From contig NZ_AULU01000012.1 of NCBI RefSeq assembly GCF_000422445.1, forward strand, positions 1 through 64,000: DNA of 64,000 nucleotides. Direction: 5' to 3'. The notes beneath the pieces are model-generated. The model did not search any database. It saw nothing but the letters and a program-made list of their open reading frames with translations, and was not told the DNA's origin. Positions within the stretch are counted from its first letter, which is position 1; every line of letters starts with the position of its first letter. The translations under genes were made by a program, and so were the position numbers. This document shows, piece after piece, positions 11,131 through 47,601 of the stretch. The stretch comes from Paenibacillus assamensis DSM 18201. GTDB taxonomy: Bacteria; Bacillota; Bacilli; Paenibacillales; Paenibacillaceae.

Positions 11131-11161
11131 AAGAATCAATCGTCAAGGTTGGTTCTTTTTT
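11131..11161 (+). terminator. Rho-independent terminator after the deacetylase
   Basis: A stem AAGAATCAA / TTGGTTCTT (one G-U) with a 9-base loop is followed by TTTT. Confidence 0.75.
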
Positions 11162-11254
11162 AGTAGTAACACCTTACATGTAAGGTTCGGATGGTTTACT
11201 TTAAGAGATACATAAATAGTAATCTGAATAGGTAAAATTTGTGTCTGGAAAGGA

Positions 11255-11293
11255 TTGACGGTACATAGGGAAAGTGATAAGATTATCGATAAT
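11255..11293 (+). promoter_or_regulatory. Promoter of the his operon with palindrome near +1
   Basis: TTGACG, a 17-base spacer and TAAGAT (11278-11283) form a good sigma-A-type promoter. The perfect 12-base palindrome ATTATCGATAAT (11282-11293) overlaps the -10 box and the likely start, a position typical of repressor operators. The leader to hisZ is about 135 bases and contains no T-box that I can see. Confidence 0.55.
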
Positions 11294-11426
11294 TTCCTTT
11301 TGTTTGCTAATAAATTAACTTGGTAGTACATTAACCCACTAAAGGATTCTGCTCGTTTAAAGATGGTTAGAGATACAATCTGGAATCCTGATCATAGTAG
11401 GGATTGAACGAACGGCGGTGAAGCGT

Positions 11427-12641: not shown

Positions 12642-12667
12642 CTTTTTGATAAGAAAGGGAGAGCGTT

Positions 12668-13306
12668 ATGAATGATTGGTTGAAGGTAGCGATGCCGAAG
12701 GGGCGCATCTATAAGCAGGCTTCGACCTTATTCCGAGAAGCGGGACTGCTCGTACCTGAAGATGAAGATCAGTCTCGCAAGCTGATTATTGATATTCCTG
12801 AAGTGAAGATGCAATTTATTATGGCAAAGCCTGTAGACGTGCCTACTTATGTAGAGTATGGCGCTGCTGATATCGGAATTGTAGGTAAAGATGTGCTGCT
12901 TGAAGAGAAACGAGATGTGTACGAATTGTTGGATCTAGGCATTGCTCGTTGCCGGATGTCGGTAATTGGCCTTCCTGATTGGAAGCCGCTAACGAATCCT
13001 CGTGTAGCTACAAAGTATCCCAATGTGGCTTCTCAATATTTTCGTGAGCGTGGACAACAGGTTGAAGTGATTAAGCTGAATGGCTCTATTGAGTTAGCGC
13101 CGCTCATCGGTCTAGCGGATCGAATTGTTGATATGGTGGAAACAGGAAAGACATTACAGGAAAATGGACTGATCGAACTGGAAGAAATGTTCGGTATTAC
13201 AAGTCGTTTGATTGCCAATCGAGTCAGCTATCGTATGAAAAACGAAGTGATTCAGCAGTTGTGTGATCGGCTGCAGGTACATCGTAATGTACAGGCCAAA
13301 GGATAA
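12668..13306 (+). CDS. hisG: ATP phosphoribosyltransferase, short form
   Basis: Catalyses the first step of histidine biosynthesis, joining ATP and PRPP to phosphoribosyl-ATP. At 212 residues it is the short form, which lacks the C-terminal ACT-like regulatory domain and works in a complex with HisZ. Characteristic segments are [12 protein letters not shown] at the N-terminus, [13 protein letters not shown], and the PRPP-site region [18 protein letters not shown] (about residues 152-169). AGGGAGAG precedes the ATG, 26 bases after hisZ. Confidence 0.97.
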
Positions 13307-13365
13307 TTTCCATGGCGCAGTGACTGCCCATGTTCAAGGGCTTACATGTGGGGAGGGCAAGAAGG

Positions 13366-14658: not shown

Positions 14659-14713
14659 GTAGAGGTTGGGCATAGTACGATGATTTGCAAATAGGTCACA
14701 GGGGTGAGGAACG

Positions 14714-15337
14714 ATGAGTCAATCAGTATCAGGAGCCGAGACGGTAGAGCGTCAACGTACAGCATCTATTGAACGAGTCACAAATGAGACGGATATTAAA
14801 TTGCAATTGGCTGTCGACGGAGAAGGTAAAAGTGACTTTCATACAGGCGTACCTTTTTTAAATCATATGCTTGATTTGTTTACGAAGCATGGTCAGTTCG
14901 ATCTTAGTGTGCAAGCAAAAGGCGACATAGAAATTGATGATCACCACACTGTAGAGGACATCGGTATTTGTCTGGGGCAGGCCTTGTTGAAGGCACTTGG
15001 TGATAAGCAAGGCATTAAGCGTTATGCATCCGTATATGTGCCTATGGATGAAGCGTTGGCTCAAGTAGTAATTGACCTGAGCAATCGTCCTCACTTGGAG
15101 TACCGTGCACAGTACCCATCTAGTCAAGTTGGTACGTTCCAGACAGAGTTGGTGCATGAGTTTCTGTGGAAGCTCGCGCTGGAAGCGAGAATGACGTTGC
15201 ACGTAATTGTTCATTATGGCCACAATACGCACCATATGATCGAAGCAGTATTCAAAGCGCTTGGACGAGCGCTTGATGAGGCAACTTCCATTGATCCGCG
15301 TGTGAAGGGTGTTCCTTCCACGAAAGGGGTGCTGTAG
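14714..15337 (+). CDS. hisB: Imidazoleglycerol-phosphate dehydratase
   Basis: Converts imidazole glycerol phosphate to imidazole acetol phosphate. The 207-residue monofunctional enzyme contains the paired manganese-binding motifs of the family, DIEIDDHHTVEDIGICLGQ (about residues 72-90) and HYGHNTHHMIEAVFKALGRA (about 170-189), and FLNHMLDLF near residue 50. Unlike the enterobacterial HisB it has no fused histidinol-phosphatase, and none is found elsewhere in this operon. The hisH start lies 4 bases after the stop. Confidence 0.97.
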   Translation: MSQSVSGAETVERQRTASIERVTNETDIKLQLAVDGEGKSDFHTGVPFLNHMLDLFTKHGQFDLSVQAKGDIEIDDHHTVEDIGICLGQALLKALGDKQGIKRYASVYVPMDEALAQVVIDLSNRPHLEYRAQYPSSQVGTFQTELVHEFLWKLALEARMTLHVIVHYGHNTHHMIEAVFKALGRALDEATSIDPRVKGVPSTKGVL

Positions 15338-15340
15338 CAC

Positions 15341-15976
15341 ATGATAGCAATTGTCGACTATGGCATGGGCAACTTGCATAGCGTCAGCAAAGCGATAGAA
15401 CGTCTAGGCAGAGAGGCGACCATTGTTTCAGATGCCAAGCAATTGCATCATGCGTCAGGCATTATTTTGCCTGGTGTCGGGGCGTTTGGGGACGCGATGG
15501 ATGCGCTGCATGCAACTGGTTTAGGCGAGGAGCTGCGAGAACTTGTACAGCAGGGGAAGCCTTTGCTTGGCATATGCCTTGGTATGCAATTGCTGTTTGA
15601 TAGCAGTGAGGAATACGGTCGGCACAAGGGCCTAAGTCTACTGCCTGGCAAGGTAGTGAGATTTCCGCAAACCGGTTATAAAGTACCGCATATGGGATGG
15701 AACTCATTGACTTGGAAAAATCCGCAGCACAGTCTTGTAAAAGAGCTGAATGAGGATTATGCATACTTCGTGCATTCCTATCATGTAGAAGTGGAAGAGC
15801 CTTCTGATCTGTTAGCTACAACGGAATATGCTGATCGTGAAGTGACAGCTATAGTTGCCCGTGACAATGTGTATGGCATGCAGTTCCATCCGGAAAAGAG
15901 TGGATCACTTGGTTTGAAGTTACTGGAGCAATTTCTAACAAAAGTCGTAGCGATGCCAATATCAAATAAGCAATGA
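15341..15976 (+). CDS. hisH: Imidazole glycerol phosphate synthase, glutaminase subunit
   Basis: A class I glutamine amidotransferase of 211 residues that supplies ammonia to HisF. The nucleophilic Cys is in LLGICLGMQLLFD (about residue 80), the catalytic His in GMQFHPEKSG, followed by the Glu. MIAIVDYGMGNL is the usual N-terminus. It works as a heterodimer with HisF, whose gene lies two genes downstream. Confidence 0.97.
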   Translation: MIAIVDYGMGNLHSVSKAIERLGREATIVSDAKQLHHASGIILPGVGAFGDAMDALHATGLGEELRELVQQGKPLLGICLGMQLLFDSSEEYGRHKGLSLLPGKVVRFPQTGYKVPHMGWNSLTWKNPQHSLVKELNEDYAYFVHSYHVEVEEPSDLLATTEYADREVTAIVARDNVYGMQFHPEKSGSLGLKLLEQFLTKVVAMPISNKQ

Positions 15977-16028
15977 ATAAGCGAGTCATCTTATAGATGA
16001 ATGGGCTGAGAGGCGAGGAGGAGCAAAT

Positions 16029-16775
16029 ATGTCTGCTGCATTTACGATATATCCTGCAATTGATATTCGCGGTGGGAAGTGCGTACGTCTTATCCAAGGG
16101 GATTATGGACAAGAGACGGTATACAACGAGCATCCAGCTGAAGTGGCGCTCAAATGGAAAGCAGAGGGCGCTTCATGGATTCATTTAGTTGACTTGGACG
16201 GAGCTAAGGAAGGCAAGCCGATTAATGATAACGTAATCGGGGAGATTGCTCAATCTGTAGATATTCCTGTACAGGTTGGGGGAGGATTGCGTACGGAAGC
16301 AGACGTAGAACGTTTGCTTGAACTTGGTGTTCGTCGAGTTATTCTTGGAACGGCTGCAATCGAGGACCGTGTATTTGTACAGAACGTATTGAAACGTTAT
16401 GGCAGTCAGATTGCAATTGGACTGGACGCGCGTGATGGCTATGTAGCGACACGTGGGTGGTTGGAGACTTCTACTGTCCGTGCGGTTGAATTGGCGCAGG
16501 AACTTGCAGGTGAAGGTGCGGAAACCTTTATTTTCACGGATATCTCACGGGACGGTATGATGCAGGGTCCTAATGTCGAGGCAATTGTAGAGCTTGCTCG
16601 TGCATCCGGACAGCAAGTCATTGCATCTGGTGGGGTAAGCAGCTTGGCTGATGTTGAAGCACTTGCTGCATTTGCGGATCAAGGTGTTAGTGGTGCGATT
16701 ATTGGTAAGGCGTTGTACACAGGCGCGGTTGATCTATCGCAAGCGTTGAATGTGACAGTTGTCCAAGGTAGTTAA
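16029..16775 (+). CDS. hisA: ProFAR isomerase
   Basis: Phosphoribosylformimino-5-aminoimidazole carboxamide ribotide isomerase, a TIM-barrel enzyme of 248 residues that opens the aminoaldose to the aminoketose. The two half-barrel phosphate motifs are visible: VQVGGGLRT near residue 80 and IASGGVSSLAD near 200. The catalytic Asp residues are in YPAIDIRGGKCVRL and FTDISRDGM. GAGGCGAGGAG precedes the start. It is homologous to HisF, from which it can be told by its DIRGG N-terminus. Confidence 0.97.
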   Translation: MSAAFTIYPAIDIRGGKCVRLIQGDYGQETVYNEHPAEVALKWKAEGASWIHLVDLDGAKEGKPINDNVIGEIAQSVDIPVQVGGGLRTEADVERLLELGVRRVILGTAAIEDRVFVQNVLKRYGSQIAIGLDARDGYVATRGWLETSTVRAVELAQELAGEGAETFIFTDISRDGMMQGPNVEAIVELARASGQQVIASGGVSSLADVEALAAFADQGVSGAIIGKALYTGAVDLSQALNVTVVQGS

Positions 16776-16884
16776 GAGATAACAAGAATATGAGATCTGG
16801 TCGTTAATGAACACTGCTTGTTAAATAGATGAATGTTTATACAGTTATTGAATTGCTGTGCCTAGAGGGGAGGAGAAGCGGGAG

Positions 16885-35475: not shown

Positions 35476-35589
35476 TTTACATGGATATAGAAAAATCCCA
35501 GCAGTGACAATTGTGTGGTTTCATATATAATAGAATGAAAAGGATAAAGTATCCATATTTTTGAAGGTGCTTATGGAAGGAGCGTTACC

Positions 35590-36126
35590 ATGACTCAACT
35601 ATTATTAATATCAGGAAGTCCCCGTAAAGGTTCTAATTCTAGCAAGGTCATACGCCATGTGCAGCAACAATTAGAGGCAGCCGGCGCTACTTGCAAAGTG
35701 TTCGATCTCAACACGGATAAGCTTCCACTTTATGAGTATGATCAGTCTCAGTATGAACTTGAGATCGTGCGTAAGCTGGTACAACAAGTTCATGAGGCAG
35801 ATGGCTATGTTATCTGTACGCCAGAATATCATGGAGCAATGAGTGGAGCTTTGAAGAACGCTCTCGACTTTCTGGGTGGAAAGGACTTTTCCGGGAAGCC
35901 GTGCGCGATTGCTGCGACAGCTGGTGGGGGCAAGGGTGGCATTAACGCATTGAATAACTTGAGAACGGTTCTGCGTTCCTTGTATGTGAACACGCTGCCT
36001 AATCAAATTATCGCTGATCCGAACGTGTTTAACGAAGAGGGTCAAGTTACGGAAGAGCGCACAGCTAACGGGTTAGGTTTGCTTGCAGAGCAATTGATTG
36101 CTGAAGTAAAACTGCGTAAATCATAG
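35590..36126 (+). CDS. azr: NADPH-dependent FMN reductase / azoreductase
   Basis: A 178-residue flavodoxin-fold oxidoreductase. The FMN-phosphate loop is ISGSPRKGSNSS (residues 7-18). The segment TPEYHGAMSGALKNALDFLG and the following TAGGGKGGINALNNLRTVLR match what I recall of Bacillus azoreductase YhdA/Azr closely. It would reduce FMN, azo dyes or quinones with NADPH as a soluble dimer. GAAGGAG precedes the ATG. It stands alone between the pot operon and the lanthipeptide block. Confidence 0.87.
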   Translation: MTQLLLISGSPRKGSNSSKVIRHVQQQLEAAGATCKVFDLNTDKLPLYEYDQSQYELEIVRKLVQQVHEADGYVICTPEYHGAMSGALKNALDFLGGKDFSGKPCAIAATAGGGKGGINALNNLRTVLRSLYVNTLPNQIIADPNVFNEEGQVTEERTANGLGLLAEQLIAEVKLRKS

Positions 36127-36359
36127 AGAAAATAGGGATATAAGTCGTCCAGTCTGATTTTATCTGATTTTAAGGTTTCGCTCAGATTCGTTTAATCTAG
36201 TAACGTTATTCTGATAGTGGACCGAATGACAGATGAGTAGAGCAAAGGAGGGCTGCCGCACGACTTCATAACCTTGACACAACGGCTTGTCCGTTGAACA
36301 AGGAGTATCCGTTTCATCTTTTCTCATGGTTTACAGTTTACCCCTAGAACATATATATG
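36127..36359. other. Intergenic region, possible small RNA
   Basis: No coding frame with an RBS is seen. A nested hairpin at about 36271-36302 (CCTTG / CAAGG outside, AACGG / CCGTT inside) lies ahead of the strong terminator at 36360. This could be the long 3' UTR of azr or a separate small RNA. Confidence 0.3.
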
Positions 36360-36395
36360 GCCGTATTGCCTTATGAGGCGATACGGCATTTTTTT
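36360..36395 (+). terminator. Strong terminator upstream of the lan immunity genes
   Basis: A 12-bp stem GCCGTATTGCCT / AGGCGATACGGC (one T-G pair) is followed by ATTTTTTT. It insulates the lan genes from upstream transcription. Confidence 0.9.
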
Positions 36396-36507
36396 GCTCA
36401 TAGTTGTTTGAAGTGGAATAACCTTACAATAATGAAAGGCTAATCATGTATTTGATCAGTTACAATAGTCGTATAAGTTTTAATTGTGAAGATGAAAGGG
36501 GCACAAT

Positions 36508-37434
36508 ATGAGCGAGCGGCGGGATAGCATTTTGGTAGAAACGTCTAGATTGCGAAAAACTTTTGGGGACTACGTAGCTGTTAATCAAGTCGATATGCAA
36601 ATACAACGAGGTCAAATTTATGGTTTCTTAGGCCCGAACGGTGCTGGTAAGACAACGACGATACGAATGCTTCTTGGTTTGATGAGGCCAAGTTCAGGCA
36701 GTATCAAAATGTTCGGAAAGGACATTCGGACGAATCGAATCGAGATATTAAGTCGAATCGGCTCACTTGTCGAATCCCCTTCGTATTACCGTAATCTTAC
36801 TGGATATGAGAACTTGCAAGCGACTTGTAAATTGCTGCGAGCCAATACATCTGAGATTGAACGTGTATTGAAGATTGTTCGCTTGGAAGAGGCAGCTCAC
36901 CGTCTCGTTAGACAATACTCCCTTGGTATGAGACAACGGCTAGGCATTGCGCTTGCACTGCTAAATAATCCTGATCTTCTTATTTTAGACGAGCCGACGA
37001 ATGGACTTGATCCTGCAGGGATCTTTGAAATTAGGGAACTTATTAAACAATTACCCCAACAATACGGCATAACCGTACTTATCTCCAGTCATAATCTTGC
37101 CGAAATGGAGTTAACTGCAACCCATGTTGGCATTATCGAACAAGGCAGCCTAATTTTCCAAGGGACGATTCAACAACTCCAACAAAAAAACCAACCCACA
37201 TTACACATCCGAGTAGATGAAAATATAAACGAAGCAATTTCGTTCTTGCAAGATACACACTTCCCTGCAATACGGGCTGATGATTTTATTCACATTTCTG
37301 GTCATGAACAATCTGCTGCAAAAATTAATGATCTACTAGTACGCTCAGGGTTTCGAGTATCTCGTCTGCATGTGCAAACGAAATCATTGGAGGATATTTT
37401 CCTAGAACTTACGGGAAGGGAAGGGTCCTTATAA
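36508..37434 (+). CDS. lanF: Lanthipeptide immunity ABC transporter, ATP-binding protein
   Basis: A 308-residue ATPase of the bacitracin/lantibiotic-protection type, which expels peptide from the membrane of the producer. It has Walker A GPNGAGKTTT (about residues 43-52), signature YSLGMRQRLG, Walker B LLILDEPTNGLDP and switch His in ISSHNLAEME. Where most ABC proteins have the Q-loop glutamine it has Glu (RIGSLVESPSYY); this E-loop is known from LanF proteins such as those for nisin and nukacin. AAAGGGG precedes the ATG. The stop shares a base with the next start, so F, E and G form one unit. Confidence 0.9.
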   Translation: MSERRDSILVETSRLRKTFGDYVAVNQVDMQIQRGQIYGFLGPNGAGKTTTIRMLLGLMRPSSGSIKMFGKDIRTNRIEILSRIGSLVESPSYYRNLTGYENLQATCKLLRANTSEIERVLKIVRLEEAAHRLVRQYSLGMRQRLGIALALLNNPDLLILDEPTNGLDPAGIFEIRELIKQLPQQYGITVLISSHNLAEMELTATHVGIIEQGSLIFQGTIQQLQQKNQPTLHIRVDENINEAISFLQDTHFPAIRADDFIHISGHEQSAAKINDLLVRSGFRVSRLHVQTKSLEDIFLELTGREGSL

Positions 37435-38162
37435 TGAATCTGTTACTTGCGACAAGAGTAGAATGGCTCAAGTGCAAGCGGAGTAGAATTATGCTCGTTG
37501 TATTAGGTGCACCTTTGCTTATTTTAATGCTTCAATTTATTAACTTCCGATTGAGGGGTTCCATCCTTCTGAAAAATAGTACATCACCTTGGTGGGAACT
37601 CATTCAGGAGATAGGCTCGTTTTGGGGCGCACTTGTTCTTCCTATATTAGTTGCAATCGTAGCTGGGATGTTGTCGGCTGTGGAGCATTCCAGCCATGCA
37701 TGGAAGTATATATTGACCATGCCTATGCAGCGCAGCACGATGTATCTAGCTAAGCTGCTCTTATGCTGCTGCTTGCTTCTTCTGAGTTCGTTAATTGTAA
37801 CCATTGGAGTCGTAGCAATTGGTTCAACGCTTGGATTTGAAGGAGCAATTCCTTGGGATAGGGTTGGATGGGTATTTATCTATCCGCTGCTTGGCTGTGC
37901 AGCAATTATCTCGATTCAAGTATGGCTAAGTACGAAGTTTCAAAATTTCTCTGTTCCATTGGCGATAGGTATCGTTAGTATTATTGCTTCTTTGTTTCTA
38001 TCTCAGTCCGAAGCAACCCATTGGTTCCCTTGGGTATACCCGTTCTTGACTGCTCCCATTGGCGAGCCGTATGAGCCAGGCTATACAAGTATGATGTCAA
38101 TCACTGTCGCTGTAATGGTTACCGTTGTTGCGCTGTGGGAATTTTCTAGACGAGATGTTTAG
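37434..38162 (+). CDS. lanE: Lanthipeptide immunity ABC transporter permease, LanE-type
   Basis: A 242-residue protein with about six hydrophobic segments, of the ABC-2 type (MutE/EpiE-like). The N-terminal ATRVEWLKCKRSRIM is the usual amphipathic start before the first helix, and HSSHAWKYILTMPMQRSTMY is the conserved cytoplasmic loop (W-K and MP) expected to touch the ATPase. It pairs with the next gene as the heterodimeric membrane part of the immunity pump. It starts within the last base of lanF. Confidence 0.87.
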   Translation: MNLLLATRVEWLKCKRSRIMLVVLGAPLLILMLQFINFRLRGSILLKNSTSPWWELIQEIGSFWGALVLPILVAIVAGMLSAVEHSSHAWKYILTMPMQRSTMYLAKLLLCCCLLLLSSLIVTIGVVAIGSTLGFEGAIPWDRVGWVFIYPLLGCAAIISIQVWLSTKFQNFSVPLAIGIVSIIASLFLSQSEATHWFPWVYPFLTAPIGEPYEPGYTSMMSITVAVMVTVVALWEFSRRDV

Positions 38163-38182
38163 AAAGAGAAAGGATGAGTAAA

Positions 38183-38929
38183 ATGGGGACGTATGTAAGA
38201 GTATTGCGTGTAGAGTTTTTTAAGCTAAGGCGTTCTCTCGTTTGGCTGGTCGTTATCTTAGCGCCTGTTATTATGGTGTTGAATGGAGATATGAACTTTA
38301 TGAGGTTCGAATCCGTGCTGGTCAAAGAAGAGGGAACAGCTTGGCTGAAGCTATATGTTCAAATCGTATTGTGGTACAGTATTTTGCTGCTACCAATGTC
38401 GATTGGAATATTAGGGATATTGATGAGTAGAACAGAGCATGCTGATGGTTCGTGGAAATACTTGCTGAGCCTTCCGATTCCTAAAAGTGTAATCTATATG
38501 GCCAAGATGACAGTACTTATTCTATTGACGGGTGTATCTATTCTGTTGCTATTACTAGGTGTGTTTGTGAGTGGAAAATGGTTGGGTATTGAAGAGGGAT
38601 TTCCGTATTCCGTAATCTTAGTCAAAGGATTACTTGGTTGGTTGATGTGCTGGCCAATCATCGCTATTCAGCAATGGTTGAGCATTCGCTACCCCGGTAT
38701 TGGAATTCCAATGGGAATTAGTGCCGCAACAGCTATTGCAGGTGTATTGATAACTAACTCCCAATATGCTGGTTATTACTTATGGTCATACCCGGCGCTC
38801 AATATGCTGCCCTCTGGAGAGGGATTTGATGTGCTGTCTATAGGTTCAAGTGTAGGGATTGCGATTCCCTTGTTCATCGTATTGGCTGGGTTAGGATTAT
38901 GGAGTTTTATTAGAAGAGATGTTCTTTAA
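38183..38929 (+). CDS. lanG: Lanthipeptide immunity ABC transporter permease, LanG-type
   Basis: A protein of 248 residues with six predicted helices, homologous to the preceding permease: the N-terminus has VLRVEFFKLRRSLVWLVV, and the loop HADGSWKYLLSLPIPKSVIY corresponds to that of LanE. This is the MutG/EpiG type. The frame also has an ATG at 38174, but AGG touches it directly; ATG 38183 has AAAGG nine bases upstream. It ends 29 bases before the convergent response regulator gene. No LanI-type immunity lipoprotein is seen in the cluster. Confidence 0.85.
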   Translation: MGTYVRVLRVEFFKLRRSLVWLVVILAPVIMVLNGDMNFMRFESVLVKEEGTAWLKLYVQIVLWYSILLLPMSIGILGILMSRTEHADGSWKYLLSLPIPKSVIYMAKMTVLILLTGVSILLLLLGVFVSGKWLGIEEGFPYSVILVKGLLGWLMCWPIIAIQQWLSIRYPGIGIPMGISAATAIAGVLITNSQYAGYYLWSYPALNMLPSGEGFDVLSIGSSVGIAIPLFIVLAGLGLWSFIRRDVL

Positions 38930-38958
38930 TCTTTTGAACGATAGGGTAGGTCATGTTG

Positions 38959-39624
38959 TTACGAGGAAGCAGCAGCTTTCAATTTATAACCTTTACCTCT
39001 TATGGTTACTAATATGGATGGGTTGCGAGGATCATCTTCAATTTTATCTCTGATATTTTTAATGTGAATATATAAATTGGATGGACTTATAAGATCGGCC
39101 AAGTCGATGATCTCCTCTGTTGTTAATGTACGGTTAATATGTTTGATCAATAGATAGACGATTTTAAACTCTGTACTAGATAGTAGGATGTGACAGTCGT
39201 TTCGTATAATGCGATGACCGGCTAAATCAAAGATGATTCCTGGAGCTAGCTCATATACATGCGAGGTGGAATGGAAATCGTTATCTAAATACCGAGTGGA
39301 TTGTAACTGCTTGGTTAATACGGCTAATGGAGCAAGTAGCTGTATATGGGCTTGCTGCTGCAAAATAACACGTTTTACTTCGGTATCATTGGTGCTCATG
39401 ATAAAAATAGGAGGCAGTAATTGGTTCATTGCATCTTTCCATAGCTCAAAATGCTCCATATCGGGCTCGGGGAAATCCAAAATAACAGCTATACAATTAG
39501 GAGCAATGGACAACTCATGCAAGCGTTTCCAACAGTTCGTATGTTGAATCTCTATATGATGTTGGCGCAGGATACAGGTAAACAGGGTGACTAGATTGTG
39601 ATTCTCTGTTAATAAAACGATCAA
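38959..39624 (-). CDS. Orphan OmpR/PhoB-type response regulator with degenerate receiver
   Basis: A 221-residue protein transcribed divergently from the lanthipeptide precursor. The C-terminal 95 residues are a winged-helix DNA-binding domain of the OmpR type (TEFKIVYLLIKHINRTLTTE, then IHIKNIRDKIEDDPRNPSIL and TIRGKGYKL). The N-terminal receiver keeps the phospho-acceptor Asp in VILDFPEPD (about residue 50), but the acidic pair is reduced to Glu-Asn (LLTENHN) and the conserved Lys of the KP motif is replaced (LLAPLAV). No histidine kinase is nearby, so it may work without phosphorylation. The start is TTG with GGGAGG nine bases upstream. It probably controls lan transcription. Confidence 0.85.
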   Translation of the reverse strand: MIVLLTENHNLVTLFTCILRQHHIEIQHTNCWKRLHELSIAPNCIAVILDFPEPDMEHFELWKDAMNQLLPPIFIMSTNDTEVKRVILQQQAHIQLLAPLAVLTKQLQSTRYLDNDFHSTSHVYELAPGIIFDLAGHRIIRNDCHILLSSTEFKIVYLLIKHINRTLTTEEIIDLADLISPSNLYIHIKNIRDKIEDDPRNPSILVTIRGKGYKLKAAASS

Positions 39625-39750
39625 AACAGCACGCCTCCCTATAGAAAAAATGACTACAATGGAATAGCAAAGTTTCTACTAAACTACCAAAATAGCTAGT
39701 CATTAACAATAGTGTATATTTACATATATATAAATTCTTATATAGGAAAC

Positions 39751-39816
39751 TTAAGAAAAATTTAGGCTCGTCCTTAACGTTTACTCAAGGTAAGAAGACG
39801 CACGGCCTTTTATAAT
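39751..39816 (+). promoter_or_regulatory. Lan operon promoter with candidate regulator repeats
   Basis: TATAAT at 39811-39816 has no recognisable -35 at 16-18 bases, as for activator-dependent promoters. Three TTA-purine-S repeats, TTAAG (39751), TTAGG (39762) and TTAAC (39774), are spaced 11 and 12 bases, the spacing of OmpR-family operators, and lie 35-60 bases before the -10. The region is between the divergent regulator and precursor genes. Confidence 0.45.
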
Positions 39817-39872
39817 AGGTTATAGGAGATGGCGCCGTTTCCACCAAAACTATGATATGAGGTGAACCTACG

Positions 39873-40013
39873 ATGGAAAATCTCAACAATGTAATCAATA
39901 ACTTATCTGATGAAGAGTTGGCTGATGTAGCAGGTGGTAAAAAAGATGGTTGTGGCTGGGTGTGCACATATACGCTAGATTGCCCTGGTACACGTTGGTT
40001 TAACTGTTGCTAA
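39873..40013 (+). CDS. lanA: Class II lanthipeptide precursor peptide
   Basis: A 46-codon gene. The leader (residues 1-22) has MENLNNVINNLSDEELADV and ends in the double-glycine site AGG, matching the C39 peptidase of LanT. The predicted 24-residue core is KKDGCGWVC followed by TYTLDCPGTRWFNCC. It contains CTYTLDC, the mersacidin/actagardine/plantaricin C-type CTxTx(E/D)C lipid-II-binding motif. It has five Cys (core 5, 9, 15, 23, 24), three Thr (10, 12, 18) and no Ser. At most three methyllanthionines can form, leaving two Cys. GAGGTG lies 8 bases before the ATG, and lanM starts 95 bases after the stop. No second precursor was found. The cut after GG is inferred. Confidence 0.92.
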   Translation: MENLNNVINNLSDEELADVAGGKKDGCGWVCTYTLDCPGTRWFNCC

Positions 40014-40028
40014 TTTAAGAAAGTTTCT

Positions 40029-40058
40029 AAATCGACAGGATTTCGGTCCTGTCGATTT
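40029..40058 (+). other. Hairpin between lanA and lanM
   Basis: A perfect 12-bp stem AAATCGACAGGA / TCCTGTCGATTT with a 6-base loop TTTCGG, followed only by ATTCTG, lies 15 bases after lanA. It could be a partial terminator or mRNA stabiliser that makes precursor mRNA exceed lanM mRNA, as is common in lantibiotic operons. Confidence 0.65.
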
Positions 40059-40108
40059 ATTCTGTATAGAGTCAATTATTATGCCAAACATGGAAGGGAG
40101 TCTATAAA

Positions 40109-43100
40109 ATGGTCAAGACTTCTCTATTAAATAAAAAAAGTTGGTTGCAAGCAGCTTATTTGAATGAACGAAGAGGAGCTGCAAATGCAAATTTAGAAAA
40201 TGATATCGGTCGTCTAAAAGCAGAGAAATGGAGTCAGCGTACAGGTTTGGATCAGCTTGGTTTGTTAACTCGCCGGTTACAGTATGATCATCTTACTGAA
40301 GCGGAGTTTATATCTATTCTTGGACAAGATGTACCTGAGTCTTGCGTGGAAGATGCTGACTGGTTCAAGATTGTGACAGCAATCTTCGATGAACCAATCG
40401 ATGTTGAACTGTTGGATAATGATATCCCCTTCGAACTACGCAATAAAGCCCCATTCTTTTCGTTCGTTATTCCTTTTCTCAAGTGGAGCAAGCATGAGGT
40501 TAATAAACAATTAAAAGAGTTACGTTTGAAAGCGGCTCCCAACCTATATTTATCCGAACAACTTGTATGCAGCCTATTGAAGCCAATTTACGAGTCGCTG
40601 TTAACGTTAGCTTGTCCTACGTTAATTTTAGAGCTGAATGCAGCAAGATTAGCAAATGAACTGCAAGGAGAAACGCGTGAGGCTAGATTTGAACATTTTA
40701 TTGCAACGAGATTGACTCGTCCAGAAGATATTGTGGTTCTCTTGGAGAAGTATCCGGTACTAGGTCGTATGATGTGTACATCCATGAAGTATGTGATTGC
40801 TGCAAGGATGGAAGCAATTGAGCATTTACTACTTGATCACGAGCAAATTCAAACCGTATTCGGATCAGGATGGTCGGAGTGTGTGGAGGTTGATAGTGGG
40901 GGGGATTTGCATAATGGTGGGCGTAGTGTATTGATTTTTACGTTTCAGTCAGGTAAGAAGCTCGTCTATAAACCACGCTCACTCTCTGTCGATGTTCATT
41001 TCCAAAACCTACTATCATGGATCAATGAGAAAGGAATTGAGCCCTCGTATCCTATCCTAAAAATACTGCCTCGCGAACGTTATGGCTGGGAAGCTTTCAT
41101 TTCAAATGCCCCTTGTACAGGTATTGAACAGGTGCAGCGTTTTTATTTGCGCCAAGGCGGCTACCTAGCCTTATTATACTTTTTAGACGCAACGGATTTC
41201 CATTCTGAAAATATTATTGCTGCTGGAGAATATCCTTATCTTATCGACTTAGAATCATTATTTCAAAATCGAATGGTATCAGAAGATGCTACCTTTGCTA
41301 TGCAAATAGCATCGAACAAGCTGATGGAATCTGTGCTTCGTACCGGATTGCTGCCTGTGTCATTGTTTAAGTCGGGAGCTTTTCAAGGTGTTGAGATTAG
41401 CGGTCTTGGTGGTTATGCCGGACAAGCCGTGCCGAAAATTACATATGGGTTTGCCGACGTAGGAACGGATGAAATGAGAATGGTGCGCAAGCAGCTATTT
41501 TTACAAGGAAGCCATAATCGACCTGTCTTTCAGGATCAGTTGATACAGGCGCAAGATTACACGGAAGATATTATGGAAGGGTTTGTTACCGTATACAAAT
41601 TGCTATTAGAGCATCGTGAAGAACTACTGGCGGAGGATGGACCGATATGGGCCTTTTCTAACGATCCCATTCGTGCGATCATTCGCGATACGCAATCGTA
41701 TGCCTCTATGCTTGAAGCAGGTCTGCATCCAAATTATTTAAGAGATGGGCTAGATCGCAATCAGTTATTTGATTTCATGTGGCGCATGGTAGAGCAAATG
41801 CCCGAAATCGTGGACATCGTCCATTCTGAATGCCTCAGCATGCTGGATGGGGATGTACCGATGTTTCATACAAAGGTTGGGTCGGCTAGCTTATGGGATC
41901 AGTGGGGTAAAGAAACGCCATCGTATTATAAGCGGGATAGTATGTCCAAAGTTATAGAACGGTTACTGAAGCTTAGTCACGAAGATTGTCAGCAGCAGCT
42001 CACGTATATTCGGACTTCTATGAGTACGATGATTAAGAAATGGGATGCAAAGCTTTCTCCTCGCGATTCTTCTTTCCGAGATAGGAATGTTACCGCAGCT
42101 CGCGAGCAATATGTAGCCGCGGCCATTCAGATCGGAGATCAACTTGAAAGAAGTGCAATCTGGAATGATGCGCGGACAGAAGTGACTTGGATCGGACTTG
42201 GTGCCAATGAGCATGACCAGTGGCTGTTTACGCCGCTTGATGCCAGCTTGTATGACGGTGTAATGGGAGTAGCCCTTTTTTATGCCTACTTAGCCGATGT
42301 GACGGGTATCGACAAATATAAGTCGATTGCATCAGCCTGTTTAAATACGGGATATCGATTTATACATGCGGAAGGTGCTGTCAAAACGGTTTCTGCATTT
42401 TATGGCTATGCATCCTTTATTTACGTACTGTTGCATCTTGGTCATTTGTGGGACAAGCCTGAGCTAATTCAGCAAGCTGAGCAACTGGTTGAGCGTATGG
42501 AACCTTTGATCGAAAAAGATGTCATGTATGATTTGCTTAGTGGTAATGCAGGAGCTATTGTTGTATGCCTGCGCTTATATAGTATGACAGGTTCTGAAAA
42601 GGCGCTTCGTGCAGCGGTTCGTTGCGGTGAACACTTGCTTTCTGAAGTGAAGGAGCTTGAAGTCGGATGTGGCTGGTCATTTGATATCAAAGCAGGACAT
42701 GAGCCTATCGCGGGCTTATCGCATGGTTCAGCAGGAATAGCTTGGGCGTTGGCGGAGCTCTCTGAAGCCACTGGAGATAAGCGCTATGTAGAAACGGCTG
42801 CGCGCACCATTGAATTTGAAAGAACACTATTTGATGCGAGTATTGGAAATTGGTCGGACACCCGATTTGTTGAGAAGCGCCAAGAATTAGGACTAGGTAC
42901 CCCTGTCCAATGGTGCCACGGAGCAGCTGGGATTGCATTAGGACGTCTTATGTACTATCGCAAATATCCGGATGGAAAAATACGTGAAGAAATTGATATT
43001 GCCGTTCAGACCACTGTTCGCGAAGGTTTTGGTGGTAGTCACTGTCTGTGTCACGGGGATCTTGGGAATTTGGAAGTGCTCTTGTTGGCAGCAGAACAAT

Positions 43101-43348
43101 TTGAAGATGATGAGATGAAAGAGATTGCTATGAAATATGCTGCGAATACGTTGTCAGAGGCAGAAAGCAACGGCTGGTTCTGCGGCATTCCTCAAGAAGA
43201 AGAAACGCCTAGCTTTATGCTTGGCTTAACAGGAATTGGCTATGGCTTGCTCCGGATGGCAAGTATAAATGACAACCCAATTCCATCAGTAGTTGTTCTT
43301 GAAGGGCCGAGTTACAGTGATAAAGAGGAGAAGGGGCTTCAACTATGA
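40109..43348 (+). CDS. lanM: Class II lanthipeptide synthetase LanM
   Basis: A bifunctional cytoplasmic enzyme of 1079 residues that dehydrates Ser/Thr of LanA and adds Cys to form (methyl)lanthionine. The N-terminal dehydratase (DUF4135) shows KLVYKPRSLSVDVHFQNL (about 283-300), DATDFHSENI (360) and YLIDLESLFQ. The C-terminal LanC-like cyclase (about 700-1065) carries the zinc ligands: Cys in WCHGAAGI (about 935) and the Cys-His of CLCHGDLGN (about 980), plus SHGSAGIAWA. Length is at the upper end of usual LanM proteins. GAAGGGAG precedes the ATG. The stop overlaps the lanT start by four bases. Confidence 0.97.
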   Translation: MVKTSLLNKKSWLQAAYLNERRGAANANLENDIGRLKAEKWSQRTGLDQLGLLTRRLQYDHLTEAEFISILGQDVPESCVEDADWFKIVTAIFDEPIDVELLDNDIPFELRNKAPFFSFVIPFLKWSKHEVNKQLKELRLKAAPNLYLSEQLVCSLLKPIYESLLTLACPTLILELNAARLANELQGETREARFEHFIATRLTRPEDIVVLLEKYPVLGRMMCTSMKYVIAARMEAIEHLLLDHEQIQTVFGSGWSECVEVDSGGDLHNGGRSVLIFTFQSGKKLVYKPRSLSVDVHFQNLLSWINEKGIEPSYPILKILPRERYGWEAFISNAPCTGIEQVQRFYLRQGGYLALLYFLDATDFHSENIIAAGEYPYLIDLESLFQNRMVSEDATFAMQIASNKLMESVLRTGLLPVSLFKSGAFQGVEISGLGGYAGQAVPKITYGFADVGTDEMRMVRKQLFLQGSHNRPVFQDQLIQAQDYTEDIMEGFVTVYKLLLEHREELLAEDGPIWAFSNDPIRAIIRDTQSYASMLEAGLHPNYLRDGLDRNQLFDFMWRMVEQMPEIVDIVHSECLSMLDGDVPMFHTKVGSASLWDQWGKETPSYYKRDSMSKVIERLLKLSHEDCQQQLTYIRTSMSTMIKKWDAKLSPRDSSFRDRNVTAAREQYVAAAIQIGDQLERSAIWNDARTEVTWIGLGANEHDQWLFTPLDASLYDGVMGVALFYAYLADVTGIDKYKSIASACLNTGYRFIHAEGAVKTVSAFYGYASFIYVLLHLGHLWDKPELIQQAEQLVERMEPLIEKDVMYDLLSGNAGAIVVCLRLYSMTGSEKALRAAVRCGEHLLSEVKELEVGCGWSFDIKAGHEPIAGLSHGSAGIAWALAELSEATGDKRYVETAARTIEFERTLFDASIGNWSDTRFVEKRQELGLGTPVQWCHGAAGIALGRLMYYRKYPDGKIREEIDIAVQTTVREGFGGSHCLCHGDLGNLEVLLLAAEQFEDDEMKEIAMKYAANTLSEAESNGWFCGIPQEEETPSFMLGLTGIGYGLLRMASINDNPIPSVVVLEGPSYSDKEEKGLQL

Positions 43349-45564
43349 GTAAGCTGACCTCTTGGCTGCTAATGAGAAGAGGTAGCTCTGCTCGTTGGAG
43401 AGTTCCTTTTATAGAACAAATGGAGCAGAGTGAGTGCGGGATATGCTGCTTGGCTATGATCTTGTCTTACTATCAATGTAATGTGCCAATGTCAGATTTA
43501 AGGCAAATGTGCAGCAACGGTAGAGACGGGACCAATCTTCTCGTTCTGCGCAATGTAGCTAGATCGCTTGGTATGGATAGTCAAGGTTCTCGTATATCAT
43601 TGCAAGAGATAAGGCAGAACAAGATACCGCTGCCTATTATACTGCATTGGGGACATAACCATTTTGTAGTATTAGAAAAAATAACAGACCATAAGGCAAT
43701 TATATTGGATCCAGCGGTGGGAAGAAGGAGTGTTGAGCTAACAGAAGCTGTGGAAAAGTATGCAGGGGTTGCTCTTAGCATGACCCCTACCTCAGCTGTC
43801 GTGAAGGTCAAAAAACAAACGATATGGCTGAAGTTCGTCAAAATTATGTCGAAGCAGCGCTGGCTTGTGTCAACGATCCTAGTGTGGTCATTATGGATTC
43901 AGTTTCTTGCGCTTGCCACTCCGATGCTAACACAATATATCGTTGACCAAGTGCTGCTGCCCCGGTCGTTTGATACGCTTCATGTCATAGCTGTGGCTAT
44001 GCTTATACTGGTAGTTTGCCATTCTTTATTTATGTTTCTTCGAAGCAGGTATTTGGTAAAGCTGCAGGTTGCATTTGACTGGCAGTTAATGAGCACGTTT
44101 TTCGGGCATTTGCTGCGCCTGCCGTACTCCTTTTTCCAAGTGAGAACAAGCGGTGATTTATTATTAAGGGCAAATAGCAATTTGGTCATTCGAGAAGTTC
44201 TTTCGAATCGAATGGTAACAGCTGTGCTGGATGGTGGATTCGTACTTGTATTTCTTGTGTACATGTATAAGCAGTCCCCCATGATGACAGGCTGGGTTCT
44301 CTTAATTGGACTAGCGCAGGTTACGGTCCTTCTGGTCGCTAATTCGATGATGAAGCGTTATTCTCAGGAGGAACTGCTGAAGCAGACGGCAGCGAGCAGC
44401 TATTTAACAGAAGTCATTCATGGTATTTCGGTCGTGAAGGCAGAAGGTGCAGAGAAAATAAGTTATCAGCGCTGGACAAATATGTTTCAAGAGCAGTTGG
44501 CGGCGAACAGAAAAAGAGGCTATTTGTCAGGGAATGTAGACACATTGGTCAGTTTTTTATCTTATGCTGCGCCGCTGCTAATTTTGTTGTTAGGCATTCA
44601 GCAGGTATCTTCCAATGTGATGACATTAGGATCGATGTTTGCTTTTTTTACATTAGCGATTGCTTTCCTGACTCCCCTTAGTTCTCTCGTTATGACGCTG
44701 AATCAAATGGTCATCATGGGTGTGTATCTCAATCGTATTATGGATATTATCGAGTCAATCCCTGAACAGGATGAAGATAAGGTTAAAGCACCAGATAAGC
44801 TGAAGGGCAATATAGAGCTGCAAAATGTAAGTTTTCGTTATAGTCCTTATCAGAACAATGTCGTTGAACATATTTCTTTACAAGTCAGTACCGGTCAAAA
44901 AATCGCCATCGTGGGTGCCTCAGGATCAGGGAAAACAACCCTTGCTTCGTTATTGCTCGGGTTATATATGCCTACAGAAGGAGCGGTGTTATATGACGGA
45001 GCAGATCTGGATGCCATCGACAAACGTTTAGTCAGAAACCAGATGGGGATCGTAACACAAAATACGTTCCTATTTAATCGCTCTATTCGTGACAATATTT
45101 CTATTCATAATCCAGAAACCTCGATGGAACAAATTGTGGAGGCAGCTAAAAAGGCTGAAATTCACGATGCGATTATGGAAATGCCTATGAAATATGAGAC
45201 GGTCATATCTGAGAATGGCTCCAATCTTTCTGGTGGCCAAAGGCAGCGAATCGTATTGGCCAGAGCGCTTGTCCATGAACCTGTCGTTCTGTTATTGGAT
45301 GAGGCGACAAGTGCATTAGATACGATAACGGAGACACGGGTAGATAGGAATCTGTCAGAGCTGTCTTGTACTAGAATCGTCATTGCTCATCGCTTAAGCA
45401 CGATACTGAATGCAGATGTTATCGTAGTGCTGCATGAGGGGAGAGTAGTCGAGCAGGGTACTCATGAGGAGCTGATGATGAACGACAATTACTATGCTCG
45501 TTTTTATGAAGCAAAGTCATTGGAAGAACGTATGTGGGAATCAACTCGAATGATTGAGGTGTAG
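43345..45564 (+). CDS. lanT: Lanthipeptide transporter/protease LanT (C39)
   Basis: A 739-residue peptidase-containing ABC exporter. The N-terminal C39 protease has the catalytic Cys in QSECGICCLAMIL (about residue 31), His in GHNHFVVLE (about 105) and Asp in ILDPAVG (about 121). Six membrane helices follow, then the ATPase with Walker A GASGSGKTT (about 524), LSGGQRQRIVLARAL and VVLLLDEATSALD. It should remove the LanA leader after the double glycine while exporting the modified peptide. Its ATGA start overlaps the lanM stop. The following gene is 3 bases away. Confidence 0.97.
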   Translation: MSKLTSWLLMRRGSSARWRVPFIEQMEQSECGICCLAMILSYYQCNVPMSDLRQMCSNGRDGTNLLVLRNVARSLGMDSQGSRISLQEIRQNKIPLPIILHWGHNHFVVLEKITDHKAIILDPAVGRRSVELTEAVEKYAGVALSMTPTSAVVKVKKQTIWLKFVKIMSKQRWLVSTILVWSLWIQFLALATPMLTQYIVDQVLLPRSFDTLHVIAVAMLILVVCHSLFMFLRSRYLVKLQVAFDWQLMSTFFGHLLRLPYSFFQVRTSGDLLLRANSNLVIREVLSNRMVTAVLDGGFVLVFLVYMYKQSPMMTGWVLLIGLAQVTVLLVANSMMKRYSQEELLKQTAASSYLTEVIHGISVVKAEGAEKISYQRWTNMFQEQLAANRKRGYLSGNVDTLVSFLSYAAPLLILLLGIQQVSSNVMTLGSMFAFFTLAIAFLTPLSSLVMTLNQMVIMGVYLNRIMDIIESIPEQDEDKVKAPDKLKGNIELQNVSFRYSPYQNNVVEHISLQVSTGQKIAIVGASGSGKTTLASLLLGLYMPTEGAVLYDGADLDAIDKRLVRNQMGIVTQNTFLFNRSIRDNISIHNPETSMEQIVEAAKKAEIHDAIMEMPMKYETVISENGSNLSGGQRQRIVLARALVHEPVVLLLDEATSALDTITETRVDRNLSELSCTRIVIAHRLSTILNADVIVVLHEGRVVEQGTHEELMMNDNYYARFYEAKSLEERMWESTRMIEV

Positions 45565-45567
45565 CTT

Positions 45568-46101
45568 ATGAAAATGATCAGGAAAGTTGTTGTTTTATGT
45601 TTGTTAGCGATTATCCCCATTGTCGGGATTTACGTTATTAATAATCCGATGATGATTATGGAAGCGTTTGCTGATTTGGGTGGATTCCAAAAAGGAGATG
45701 CATTCCCTGTAGTGAAGGGGGAGGATGTTCATAACAAAGAGTTCAGCCTTGAAGATTATAAAGGAAAGCCCTTCATTATTATGATGGCAAAAATAGATTG
45801 TGAAATTTGCAAGCAATCTTACCCTTATTTAGCCGATTGGGAAAAAAACAATTCTGATATCCCTTTTGTTATGGTAGGACAAGGTGGGAGAGAGCAGTAT
45901 AAGGCCGTTTGGCAGGAACAACAATTTCAATTTCCTATCCTAGATGCAGATAACCAGATACAAGAATCATTAAAAATGAAAATCTTCCCTGTCTTCTATG
46001 CTGTTGATGCTAATGGGGAAATCAAGAAGCGGATGAACGGATATGATGAAGGCGATCTAAAAGCTATGGTAAATGAGGTGCGGCAACTTGCGTACAATTA
46101 A
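45568..46101 (+). CDS. Membrane-anchored thioredoxin-like oxidoreductase (TlpA/BdbA-like)
   Basis: A 177-residue protein with one N-terminal membrane anchor (VVVLCLLAIIPIVGIYVI) and an extracytoplasmic thioredoxin-like domain of the AhpC/TlpA type, seen in GDAFPVVKGEDVHNKEFSLE. The redox motif is CEIC in AKIDCEICKQSYPYL (Cys about 77 and 80). Ala-Asn-Gly follows in the C-terminal half, but a clear cis-Pro is in KIFPVFYAVD. It lies 3 bases after lanT and before a VKOR gene, so I infer that it forms or checks a disulfide in the exported lanthipeptide. A reductase or general-redox role is the alternative. Confidence 0.87.
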   Translation: MKMIRKVVVLCLLAIIPIVGIYVINNPMMIMEAFADLGGFQKGDAFPVVKGEDVHNKEFSLEDYKGKPFIIMMAKIDCEICKQSYPYLADWEKNNSDIPFVMVGQGGREQYKAVWQEQQFQFPILDADNQIQESLKMKIFPVFYAVDANGEIKKRMNGYDEGDLKAMVNEVRQLAYN

Positions 46102-46522
46102 ACGTCTTTGGCTGCTGCAGGTTCTGTCTTTAGCGGGAGTGGCTATCTCTTTGTATATATACGTATTTTCACTCTCGAATAATTTCTTCTGTCCCGTAGG
46201 GGATTGTGCCACAGTGACAAGTAGTCCATTTTCCTATATTGGATCTGTTCCAGTATCCCTGTTTGGTTTTATGTACTACATGCTGCTGCTCTTTATCTTT
46301 CAAATCCTTCGGTGGAGGAGCAATCCATTGCTATTAAAAGCGGTGGGAGCGTTCTGTGTAATTGGCTTGCTGTATTCTATATTCCTTATGTTTGTTCAAG
46401 TTGTTTATATTCAGGCTGTATGCTTCTGGTGTGTATGCTCATTCATATTCATCACGCTGATCAATATGATATATGGTAGAGGAGTGTTTGACTTCAAAAG
46501 ATTTACAAAAAGTTTTAATTGA
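46088..46522 (+). CDS. VKOR-family disulfide-generating membrane protein
   Basis: A 144-residue protein with four predicted helices of the vitamin K epoxide reductase family, which reoxidises thioredoxin-like partners and passes electrons to quinone. Both cysteine pairs are visible: the loop pair in FFCPVGDCATV (residues 35 and 40) and the active-site CFWC (112-115), and the signature VPVSLFGFMYY lies between. The start is TTG, 7 bases after GAGGTG; an in-frame ATG at 46073 would place that RBS inside the gene. It overlaps the preceding gene by 14 bases, so it belongs to the lan operon. It is the probable oxidising partner of the CEIC protein, in place of the BdbB/DsbB type. Confidence 0.9.
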   Translation: MRTIKRLWLLQVLSLAGVAISLYIYVFSLSNNFFCPVGDCATVTSSPFSYIGSVPVSLFGFMYYMLLLFIFQILRWRSNPLLLKAVGAFCVIGLLYSIFLMFVQVVYIQAVCFWCVCSFIFITLINMIYGRGVFDFKRFTKSFN

Positions 46523-46546
46523 ATAGTTATCGGGTAATGAGTAGCG

Positions 46547-46588
46547 GGTGATATTTCACAGTAACAGTGGAGTGTCGCCTGTTTTTTT
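46547..46588 (+). terminator. Terminator of the lanA-lanM-lanT-redox operon
   Basis: A 13-pair stem GGTGATATTTCAC / GTGGAGTGTCGCC with several G-T pairs and a 7-base loop runs into TGTTTTTTT. It places the VKOR gene last in the lan operon. Confidence 0.85.
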
Positions 46589-46682
46589 ATATATAAATAA
46601 TTTGTAATCTTTTTCAAACTATTACAATAACTTTTAAATGATCTCTGGTTACAATTATGTTACTATTTTTGTTGTAAGTAAA

Positions 46683-46788
46683 AACAAGCCGAAGCCCATA
46701 GGCGCGGGGGAACCACCAATGGGGTGAACCGCATAAGCGATAGGGGAGTCTCTTTCCCCGAACCCGACAGCTAACCTCGTAGGCTACA
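46683..46788 (+). promoter_or_regulatory. Cyclic di-AMP riboswitch (ydaO/yuaA class)
   Basis: The conserved blocks of the ydaO-yuaA RNA occur in order: GCCGAAGCCC, GGGGGAACC, GGGGTGAACCGC, AGGGGAGTCTCTTTCCCCGA, and ACCCGACAGCTAACCTCGTAG, with outer pairing AGCC / GGCT. In Firmicutes this riboswitch turns genes off when c-di-AMP is high and often precedes cell-wall hydrolase or ion-transport genes. Here it ends about 15 bases before the RBS of a CAP-domain exoprotein. Whether an expression platform overlaps the RBS GGGAGAG is not obvious. Confidence 0.88.
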
Positions 46789-46803
46789 AAGGGAGAGAAT
46801 ATT

Positions 46804-47562
46804 TTGAAGAAACCATTTAAGCATGTCCATAAACTAGTGGTAGTAGGAGCTTTGGCGCTTACTCCAGTATTGTCTGTAGGTACAGCAGCAGCTGCACCAG
46901 AGTGCCCAGCACCAACTGTTAATACGAATGTAAAGGGTCAGACTATCGTTGTTAACGGTAACTCTACAACTGACTTGAACGAGCTGCTTTCTAAGTGGTT
47001 CCCGAACTGGAATATTGTTGTGAACAAGCCTGAAGCTAAGCCTGAAGCTAATAAGCCAAAACCACAACCGCAACCAGAGAAACCGAAACCACAGCCAGAA
47101 AAACCAAGCAAGCCAGAAACAAAACCGCAACAACCAACTAAGCCAACGACACCAACGAAGCCGGAAAACAACAATGGCAACCAAGGTACACAAGCAAGCA
47201 CTAACGTACAGCAAGTTATTGAATTGGTAAACAAAGAACGTGCAAAAGCGGGCTTGCCTGTATTAAAATATGACGAGAAGTTGTCTCAAGTTGCTCACTT
47301 GAAAGCAAAAGACATGATCGATAACAACTACTTCGATCACAATTCTCCAACTTACGGTTCTCCGTTCGATATGATGCGTTCCCAAGGTGTTTCTTACAAC
47401 ACAGCTGGTGAGAACATTGCTAAAGGTCAACGCTCTGCAGAAGAAGTTATGAAAGACTGGATGAACAGCCCAGGTCACCGTCAAAACATTTTGAAAGACG
47501 GTTACACAAAGATCGGTGTAGGCTACTACAACGGTGCATGGGTACAAATGTTTATCGGCTAA
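46804..47562 (+). CDS. Secreted CAP/SCP-domain protein (YkwD-like)
   Basis: A 252-residue exported protein: signal peptide (residues 1-31, ending TAAAA), a short segment with two Cys-less blocks, a Pro/Lys/Gln-rich linker from about 78 to 125, and a CAP domain (about 138-252) with LVNKERAKAGLPVLKYDEKL, HNSPTYGSPFDMM and AGENIAKGQRSAEEVMKDWM, SPGHRQNI. The His/Glu pair of the CAP cavity is present. Function is unknown, but CAP proteins are found on the walls and spores of Bacillales. The start is TTG with GGGAGAG before it. The c-di-AMP riboswitch upstream indicates control by wall or osmotic state. Confidence 0.9.
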   Translation: MKKPFKHVHKLVVVGALALTPVLSVGTAAAAPECPAPTVNTNVKGQTIVVNGNSTTDLNELLSKWFPNWNIVVNKPEAKPEANKPKPQPQPEKPKPQPEKPSKPETKPQQPTKPTTPTKPENNNGNQGTQASTNVQQVIELVNKERAKAGLPVLKYDEKLSQVAHLKAKDMIDNNYFDHNSPTYGSPFDMMRSQGVSYNTAGENIAKGQRSAEEVMKDWMNSPGHRQNILKDGYTKIGVGYYNGAWVQMFIG

Positions 47563-47601
47563 TTCAGTATTAGCGATGAAATAGGGTTAATTCTAAATGT
47601 A

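Follow-up and report, generated by a model that had tools for sequence, protein, structure and literature searches.

A salivaricin A-like class II lanthipeptide cluster of Paenibacillus assamensis with linked TlpA and VKOR genes and a candidate N-terminal disulfide

The window, which is the whole stretch of 64,000 nucleotides analysed here, carries a lanthipeptide precursor gene, lanA, on the forward strand (39873-40013; leader 39873-39938, core 39939-40010, stop codon 40011-40013). Its ORF translates into 46 residues, MENLNNVINNLSDEELADVAGG followed by KKDGCGWVCTYTLDCPGTRWFNCC, the first 22 of which form the leader with Gly-Gly at its end. From this type of leader we infer cleavage after Gly-Gly; the double-Gly leader ends in VAGG, and the cluster contains a C39-peptidase exporter (PF03412 in LanT). 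The 24-residue core KKDGCGWVCTYTLDCPGTRWFNCC has Cys at positions 5, 9, 15, 23 and 24, Thr at positions 10, 12 and 18 and no Ser, and the translation thus bears out the composition given in the original prediction; the only Ser of the precursor is located in the leader. The precursor matches the Pfam family of type A lantibiotics (PF04604, 30.4 bits, cut-off 21.7) and stays under the cut-off of the lacticin 481 model of NCBIfam (NF040664, 15.6 bits against 46). At least five Cys codons among 24 are expected from base composition alone with P ~9e-4. Since the precursor matches PF04604, LanM and the C39 exporter lie downstream, and the Cys pattern recurs beside LanM in other genera, lanA is more than a chance ORF, and its sequence confirms 39873-40013 (+) as encoding a class II lanthipeptide precursor. 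The gene is present in one copy in its own genome and was matched in none of 18 other genomes of the genus at E ≤ 0.05; a single-sequence search for solved relatives of the precursor returned none up to E = 10. A two-peptide system was rejected: of six small Cys-rich ORFs listed in 35501-47600, lanA alone has a leader of the lanthipeptide type, and the remaining five either have none or overlap annotated genes.

Upstream of lanA, the forward strand encodes a LanF-type ATPase of a self-protection ABC transporter (36508-37434; PF00005, best NCBIfam model galliderm_ABC TIGR03740 at 3e-76, below cut-off) and two LanE/G-type permeases (37434-38162 and 38174-38929; PF12730 in both, with the MutG/MutE models below cut-off). 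A divergent OmpR-type regulator follows on the reverse strand (38959-39624), in which PF00486, the DNA-binding domain, is the only Pfam response-regulator domain; its receiver domain is unrecognised by Pfam, and no kinase is seen adjoining. Unlike this regulator, the response regulators of the P. hwajinpoensis and Metabacillus clusters described below are accompanied by a kinase.

Downstream of lanA, an attenuator- or terminator-like stem-loop (40028-40059, +; one found against 0.2 expected, fold z-score -4.98) precedes lanM, which starts 95 bases after lanA (40109-43348, +) and encodes a bifunctional lanthipeptide synthetase with WCHG and CHG motifs (TIGR03897, 984.4 bits against a cut-off of 304; DUF4135; LANC_like). 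The gene for the C39 peptidase/ABC exporter LanT (43345-45564, +; PF03412, PF00664, PF00005) overlaps lanM by 4 bases. It is followed by tlpA (45568-46101, +; PF08534, PF00578), encoding a membrane-anchored ResA/TlpA-like thioredoxin with the motif C78-E-I-C81, and by vkor (46073-46522, +; PF07884), encoding a predicted VKOR-family thiol oxidase and overlapping tlpA by 29 bases. Because lanM, lanT, tlpA and vkor overlap or abut, they probably form one transcript, and the operon probably ends at a terminator-like stem-loop 3' of vkor (46543-46583, +; one found against 0.2 expected).

The VKOR assignment rests on a score of 60.8 bits against PF07884 (cut-off 27.5) and on the presence of the CxxC motif and the loop Cys pair (Cys 40, 45, 117 and 120), although the NCBIfam VKOR equivalog models are not reached. 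Both catalytic Cys pairs are retained in all seven aligned VKOR sequences, and the thioredoxin CxxC in all five aligned. A single-sequence search for solved relatives of the window VKOR gave none up to E = 0.1, and a VKOR search of phage records had no match.

In the core, Cys5 and Cys9 precede every Thr. When the thioethers are drawn in the usual direction, T10-C15, T12-C23 and T18-C24, exactly Cys5 and Cys9 are therefore left over, and these three links would reproduce by position the full ring pattern of lacticin 481. In nukacin ISK-1, a member of the lacticin 481 group, ring A comprises residues 9-14 and has been linked to the binding of lipid II (PMC6156582). The three methyllanthionines with a spare Cys5-Cys9 pair had been put forward in the original prediction, and this predicted pattern fits the placement of both Cys upstream of all Thr; the mass shifts expected with it, -54 and -2 Da, are right by calculation. 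The calculated monoisotopic mass of the core is 2701.116 after three dehydrations with all thiols free, and 2699.100 when one disulfide is added. The two Cys (Cys5, 39951-39953; Cys9, 39963-39965) enclose CGWVC (39951-39965, +), the proposed disulfide loop, and the pair is invariant in the CGWxC relatives. The N-terminal disulfide was a plausible idea, and it gains considerably in strength from tlpA and vkor in this operon; these two genes, absent from the earlier proposal, are the chief evidence bearing on the bond.

Relatives were collected along several routes. Scanning genome contigs for the pattern CGWxCTx[ST]x[DE]C gave 24 loci, five of which (L003, L005, L009, L018 and L025) were accepted as precursors on the basis of a precursor-like ORF with a LanM alongside; they belong to Ectobacillus funiculus, Bacillus sp. 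J33, Pseudalkalibacillus decolorationis, Metabacillus arenae and a planctomycete. The other 19 were rejected on reading the ORF, and the L014 genome, the one tested for LanM, lacks it. Five records were returned by a plasmid protein search with the lanA precursor, one from P. hwajinpoensis and four from streptococci, and two of the latter were read (H2 and H3, with H4 and H5 left out). Two Priestia megaterium plasmids with the core AAGCGWSCTITDDCPNSVFVCC came to light when plasmids were searched for LanM and VKOR. Among 320 genomes of the window's family, the precursor profile found matches in four, namely that of the window, G338, G557 and G586, and the G586 precursor reads MEQLTNVIDLLSDEELAEIAGG followed by MRCQDCSMTKNCGSDFTGNAVCQG. 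Ectobacillus has two precursors, both with CGWIC. At class level 12 of 398 genomes matched the profile, with locus L044 unread and L043 a chance match on reading. Order-level searches around G281 (42 genomes) and G313 (59 genomes) yielded three matches and one, respectively, in G228, G397, G109 and G251 (locus L077 of G251 unread). Virus contigs contained 97 pattern stretches for profile A2, none of which was confirmed.

The order lanA-lanM-lanT-tlpA-vkor is the same in eight clusters from seven species, these being the window, P. hwajinpoensis, P. decolorationis, J33, Ectobacillus, the two P. megaterium plasmids and G586. Their nine precursor genes, which represent seven distinct sequences, all encode an N-terminal Cys pair immediately ahead of ring A, spaced as CX3C except for CX2C in G586. 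Four of the eight clusters are not independent tests of this association, since the analysis set out from the window, and J33, P. decolorationis and Ectobacillus emerged from a search for the pair itself; the searches that led to P. hwajinpoensis, P. megaterium and G586 did not require it, and in G586 the VKOR search and the precursor-profile search converged on one locus. The same Cys pair stands in several deposited clusters, three of which are annotated 'type A2 lanthipeptide', and in this respect the impression of novelty in the original prediction is not supported.

Outside such clusters VKOR is rare. It was found above cut-off in three of 398 class genomes (the window's, G155 and G313), with weaker matches under cut-off in seven more, and in two of 320 family genomes (the window's and G586). 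LanM exceeded its cut-off in 35 of the 398 class genomes, and only the window genome among these 35 also has VKOR above cut-off. In 18 control LanM regions, taken from 18 of the 34 other LanM genomes, tblastn at 1e-4 detected neither TlpA nor VKOR. Two genomes of the window's family encode salivaricin A-like precursors without the Cys pair: G338 showed no VKOR in the class and family genome searches, and G557 showed none in its region L085 or among the family VKOR matches.

The remaining VKOR genes have other neighbours. In G155 the gene adjoins a DsbA-like gene and Cys-rich precursors in a cluster that reads as the lasso-peptide type, and the same set of genes occurs in a P. megaterium KF18 cluster annotated as lasso. 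Both clusters (L047 of G155, 9938-16868; L070 of the KF18 plasmid, 211-7574) contain two Cys-rich precursors with leaders of the forms MKKYVSPS... and MKKFSFPT..., and their gene content suggests that the products are likely disulfide-bearing lasso peptides. The G313 VKOR is near genes for a putative thioredoxin-like lipoprotein and a putative secreted protease, and a fifth plasmid VKOR, from Thermomicrobium roseum, adjoins a thioredoxin-domain gene, with no annotated lanthipeptide gene there.

Among the clusters examined, the enzymes imply the Cys pair, but the Cys pair does not imply the enzymes. Metabacillus arenae has a CGWRC precursor, but its cluster lacks TlpA and VKOR and its genome lacks VKOR; since its LanM nests inside the VKOR clade, a loss is the simplest explanation. 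In the LanM tree the seven CGWxC LanMs are grouped with support of 100/98, whereas the group of eight with G586 has only 83/92. Because all VKOR clusters sit in one LanM lineage, the association of enzymes and pair may represent a single gain, retained through long divergence, rather than many.

CGxxC-type precursors also occur with other LanM lineages, in G228, G397, G067 and the planctomycete, and TlpA and VKOR are absent from these clusters. The loci of G228 (L051) and G397 (L053) encode CGNVCTWTKDCSICPSWSCWSWSC-type cores with a longer, different leader and a CX3C before the first Thr/Ser, without VKOR, and belong to a second LanM lineage with the Cys-pair pattern. Cys-rich class II precursors with the common core C-x-C-Y-S-D-x-G-S-C-G-x-x-C-T are encoded in a planctomycete MAG (L034, 606-866) and in G067 of the window's class (L054, about 11041, minus strand); their LanMs are sisters (97/97), which suggests transfer across phyla, between Planctomycetota and the window's class.

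Judging from the core and its gene neighbours, we consider it probable that LanM forms the three methyllanthionines and that TlpA and VKOR then close Cys5-Cys9 outside the membrane, giving a thioether/disulfide hybrid. LanM would act in the reducing cytosol, where it would dehydrate Thr10, Thr12 and Thr18 and close ring A (T10-C15), a ring of the type that binds lipid II, as well as T12-C23 and T18-C24, while Cys5 and Cys9 would remain free. LanT would cleave behind Gly-Gly and export the core. On the outer side of the membrane, the anchored ResA/TlpA-like thioredoxin may oxidise Cys5 and Cys9 to the five-residue CGWVC loop, and VKOR may reoxidise the thioredoxin, with electrons presumably flowing to quinone. 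The product would be expected to have antibacterial activity directed at lipid II. A disulfide made by TlpA and VKOR is favoured because eight clusters keep both the gene order and the pair, VKOR is otherwise rare and the catalytic Cys are conserved, and also because VKOR occurs with a DsbA-like gene in the two lasso-type clusters with Cys-rich precursors.

Alternatively, the Cys5-Cys9 disulfide could form spontaneously or through a general DsbB-type oxidase, with TlpA and VKOR acting as helpers for speed or proofreading or serving another exported protein. The disulfide of bovicin HJ50 is described as spontaneous, and the dsbA gene near that cluster as dispensable for it (PMC4018250). DsbB homologues above cut-off are present in eight of the ten genomes or records searched, that of the window among them, and M. 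arenae retains the Cys pair without TlpA/VKOR, so these enzymes may not be essential. On the other hand, the genes overlap, the gene pair is retained in eight clusters whose LanMs have 46% identity or less to the window LanM, and VKOR is scarce elsewhere, which makes a spontaneous or general route unlikely.

The ring pattern itself could also differ. A Cys of the N-terminal pair might enter a reverse-direction thioether and leave another Cys for the disulfide, in a pattern unlike that of lacticin 481. Five Cys and three Thr permit other pairings, and reverse-direction rings exist in some lanthipeptides; however, the Thr/Ser and Cys positions after the pair in the CGWxC relatives match those of the salivaricin A core, and we hold such an arrangement to be improbable.

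The direction of the redox chemistry is a further point. ResA-type thioredoxins are reductants in the known cases, and the nearest solved relatives of the window thioredoxin are ResA proteins. TlpA and VKOR might accordingly keep exported thiols reduced or reshuffle wrong disulfides, and Cys5 and Cys9 of the mature peptide would then be free or metal-binding. We find this very doubtful: no DsbD/CcdA-type electron donor was seen among the recognised cluster neighbours, and the partner of VKOR in described bacterial pathways is an oxidase, DsbB and VKOR each reoxidising DsbA-type partners (PMC11208910). A silent or decayed cluster without a peptide product is hardly credible, since the ORFs are uninterrupted and the motifs and terminator-like sites are retained, even with a regulator that lacks a recognisable receiver domain and has no kinase alongside.

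As read from the genes, the most likely product is a class II lanthipeptide similar to salivaricin A, with an N-terminal disulfide made by the linked TlpA/VKOR pair. A literature search, whose coverage excludes most subscription journals, found no publication on the Cys-pair/VKOR lanthipeptide clusters. Within the same coverage, no paper combined lanthipeptide, VKOR and disulfide or vitamin K epoxide reductase, bacteriocin and disulfide, and the matches listed contained no mention of lasso peptides; the sole match for vitamin K epoxide reductase with lanthipeptide was an Amycolatopsis species description. Searching by peptide string gave matches that carry salivaricin A sequences (A1, A2). Lantibiotic disulfides have been described as a little-studied feature of minor importance, with bovicin HJ50 and its self-forming bond as the exception (PMC4018250). 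We lean towards a lanthipeptide subgroup that encodes its own TlpA/VKOR machinery for an N-terminal CX2C/CX3C disulfide beside the lipid II ring, unlike the spontaneous bovicin HJ50 type. If this is true, VKOR would be a transferable maturation module for the ribosomal-peptide clusters of Bacilli, lasso-type clusters with Cys-rich precursors included. The oxidase pair is kept inside the lanthipeptide operon, and the maker of the disulfide could be tested directly by gene deletion; the pair could also supply parts for producing peptides with both thioethers and disulfides in expression hosts, and the presence of VKOR next to LanM or lasso genes would serve as a handle for genome mining.

The nearest characterised core is that of the type A(II) lantibiotic salivaricin A, e.g. 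KRGSGWIATITDDCPNSVFVCC, which shares GW-x-x-T-x-T-x-D-C-P...C-C with the window core and likewise belongs to PF04604. In salivaricin A-type cores the place of the first Cys is taken by Ser, Pro or Thr and that of the second by Ala, and both are changed together in the window. The P. megaterium and J33/P. hwajinpoensis cores are identical over TITDDCPNSVFVCC to the S. equinus and streptococcal salivaricin-type cores, whereas the salivaricin A LanM belongs to a distant lineage with 26% identity to the window LanM; SalM groups with the G557 LanM (100/99), apart from the window lineage. No TlpA or VKOR was matched in the two streptococcal salivaricin-type regions searched. The occurrence of TITDDCPNSVFVCC in distant LanM lineages suggests either that cores were exchanged between synthetases or that they converged, and the identical ring region bears on the movement of cores between synthetases. 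The S. salivarius plasmid pSsal-YU10 (L028, 1559-10126) bears three lacticin 481-type precursors served by a LanM of their own and, 7 kb further along, a salivaricin A-type cluster.

Haloduracin alpha has an N-terminal disulfide before a CTLTxEC ring, in a two-peptide system and with a wider Cys spacing, whereas the window has a single Cys-rich precursor with a lanthipeptide-type leader. Plantaricin C has a Lys-rich start and a C-terminal CC, as does the window core. The suggested resemblance to it did not hold, since the plantaricin C family model of NCBIfam gave 18.1 bits (NF000539, cut-off 29) and salivaricin A is closer; kinship with plantaricin C was rejected.

Actagardine starts with SSGWVC, and a six-residue first ring is thus Ser1-Cys6. 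The alignment with actagardine in the original prediction stands as far as the letters GWVCT-x-T-x-(D/E)-C are concerned, which the actagardine/mersacidin group shares with the window core together with a ring-A-type lipid II motif; its placement of the ring Ser at Cys5 was probably one position off, as this Ser aligns with Gly4. A type B Ser-Cys first ring before CT, as in actagardine and mersacidin, does not occur in a core without Ser. The equivalent first ring of actagardine is a Ser-Cys lanthionine of six residues (PMC2706954), whereas the proposed ring of the window is a Cys-Cys loop of five.

The bovicin HJ50-like peptides (perecin, cerecin, thuricin, suicin) are also class II, are related to lacticin 481 and carry a disulfide beside thioethers (PMC4018250). 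In bovicin HJ50 the bond is C-terminal, C21-C29, replaces ring C and forms with no dedicated enzyme, according to the same article. In the window core, it is the two N-terminal Cys, rather than C-terminal ones, that are expected to stay outside the thioethers, and putative disulfide enzymes are linked to this N-terminal pair. The nearest described architecture that we found is that of the glycocin clusters of sublancin and pallidocin, in which an exporter is combined with the thioredoxin BdbA and the quinone oxidase BdbB as presumed disulfide makers (PMC6405829). Those products are S-glycosylated and not lanthionine peptides, and their oxidase is of the DsbB type, whereas the oxidase predicted beside lanA is a VKOR.
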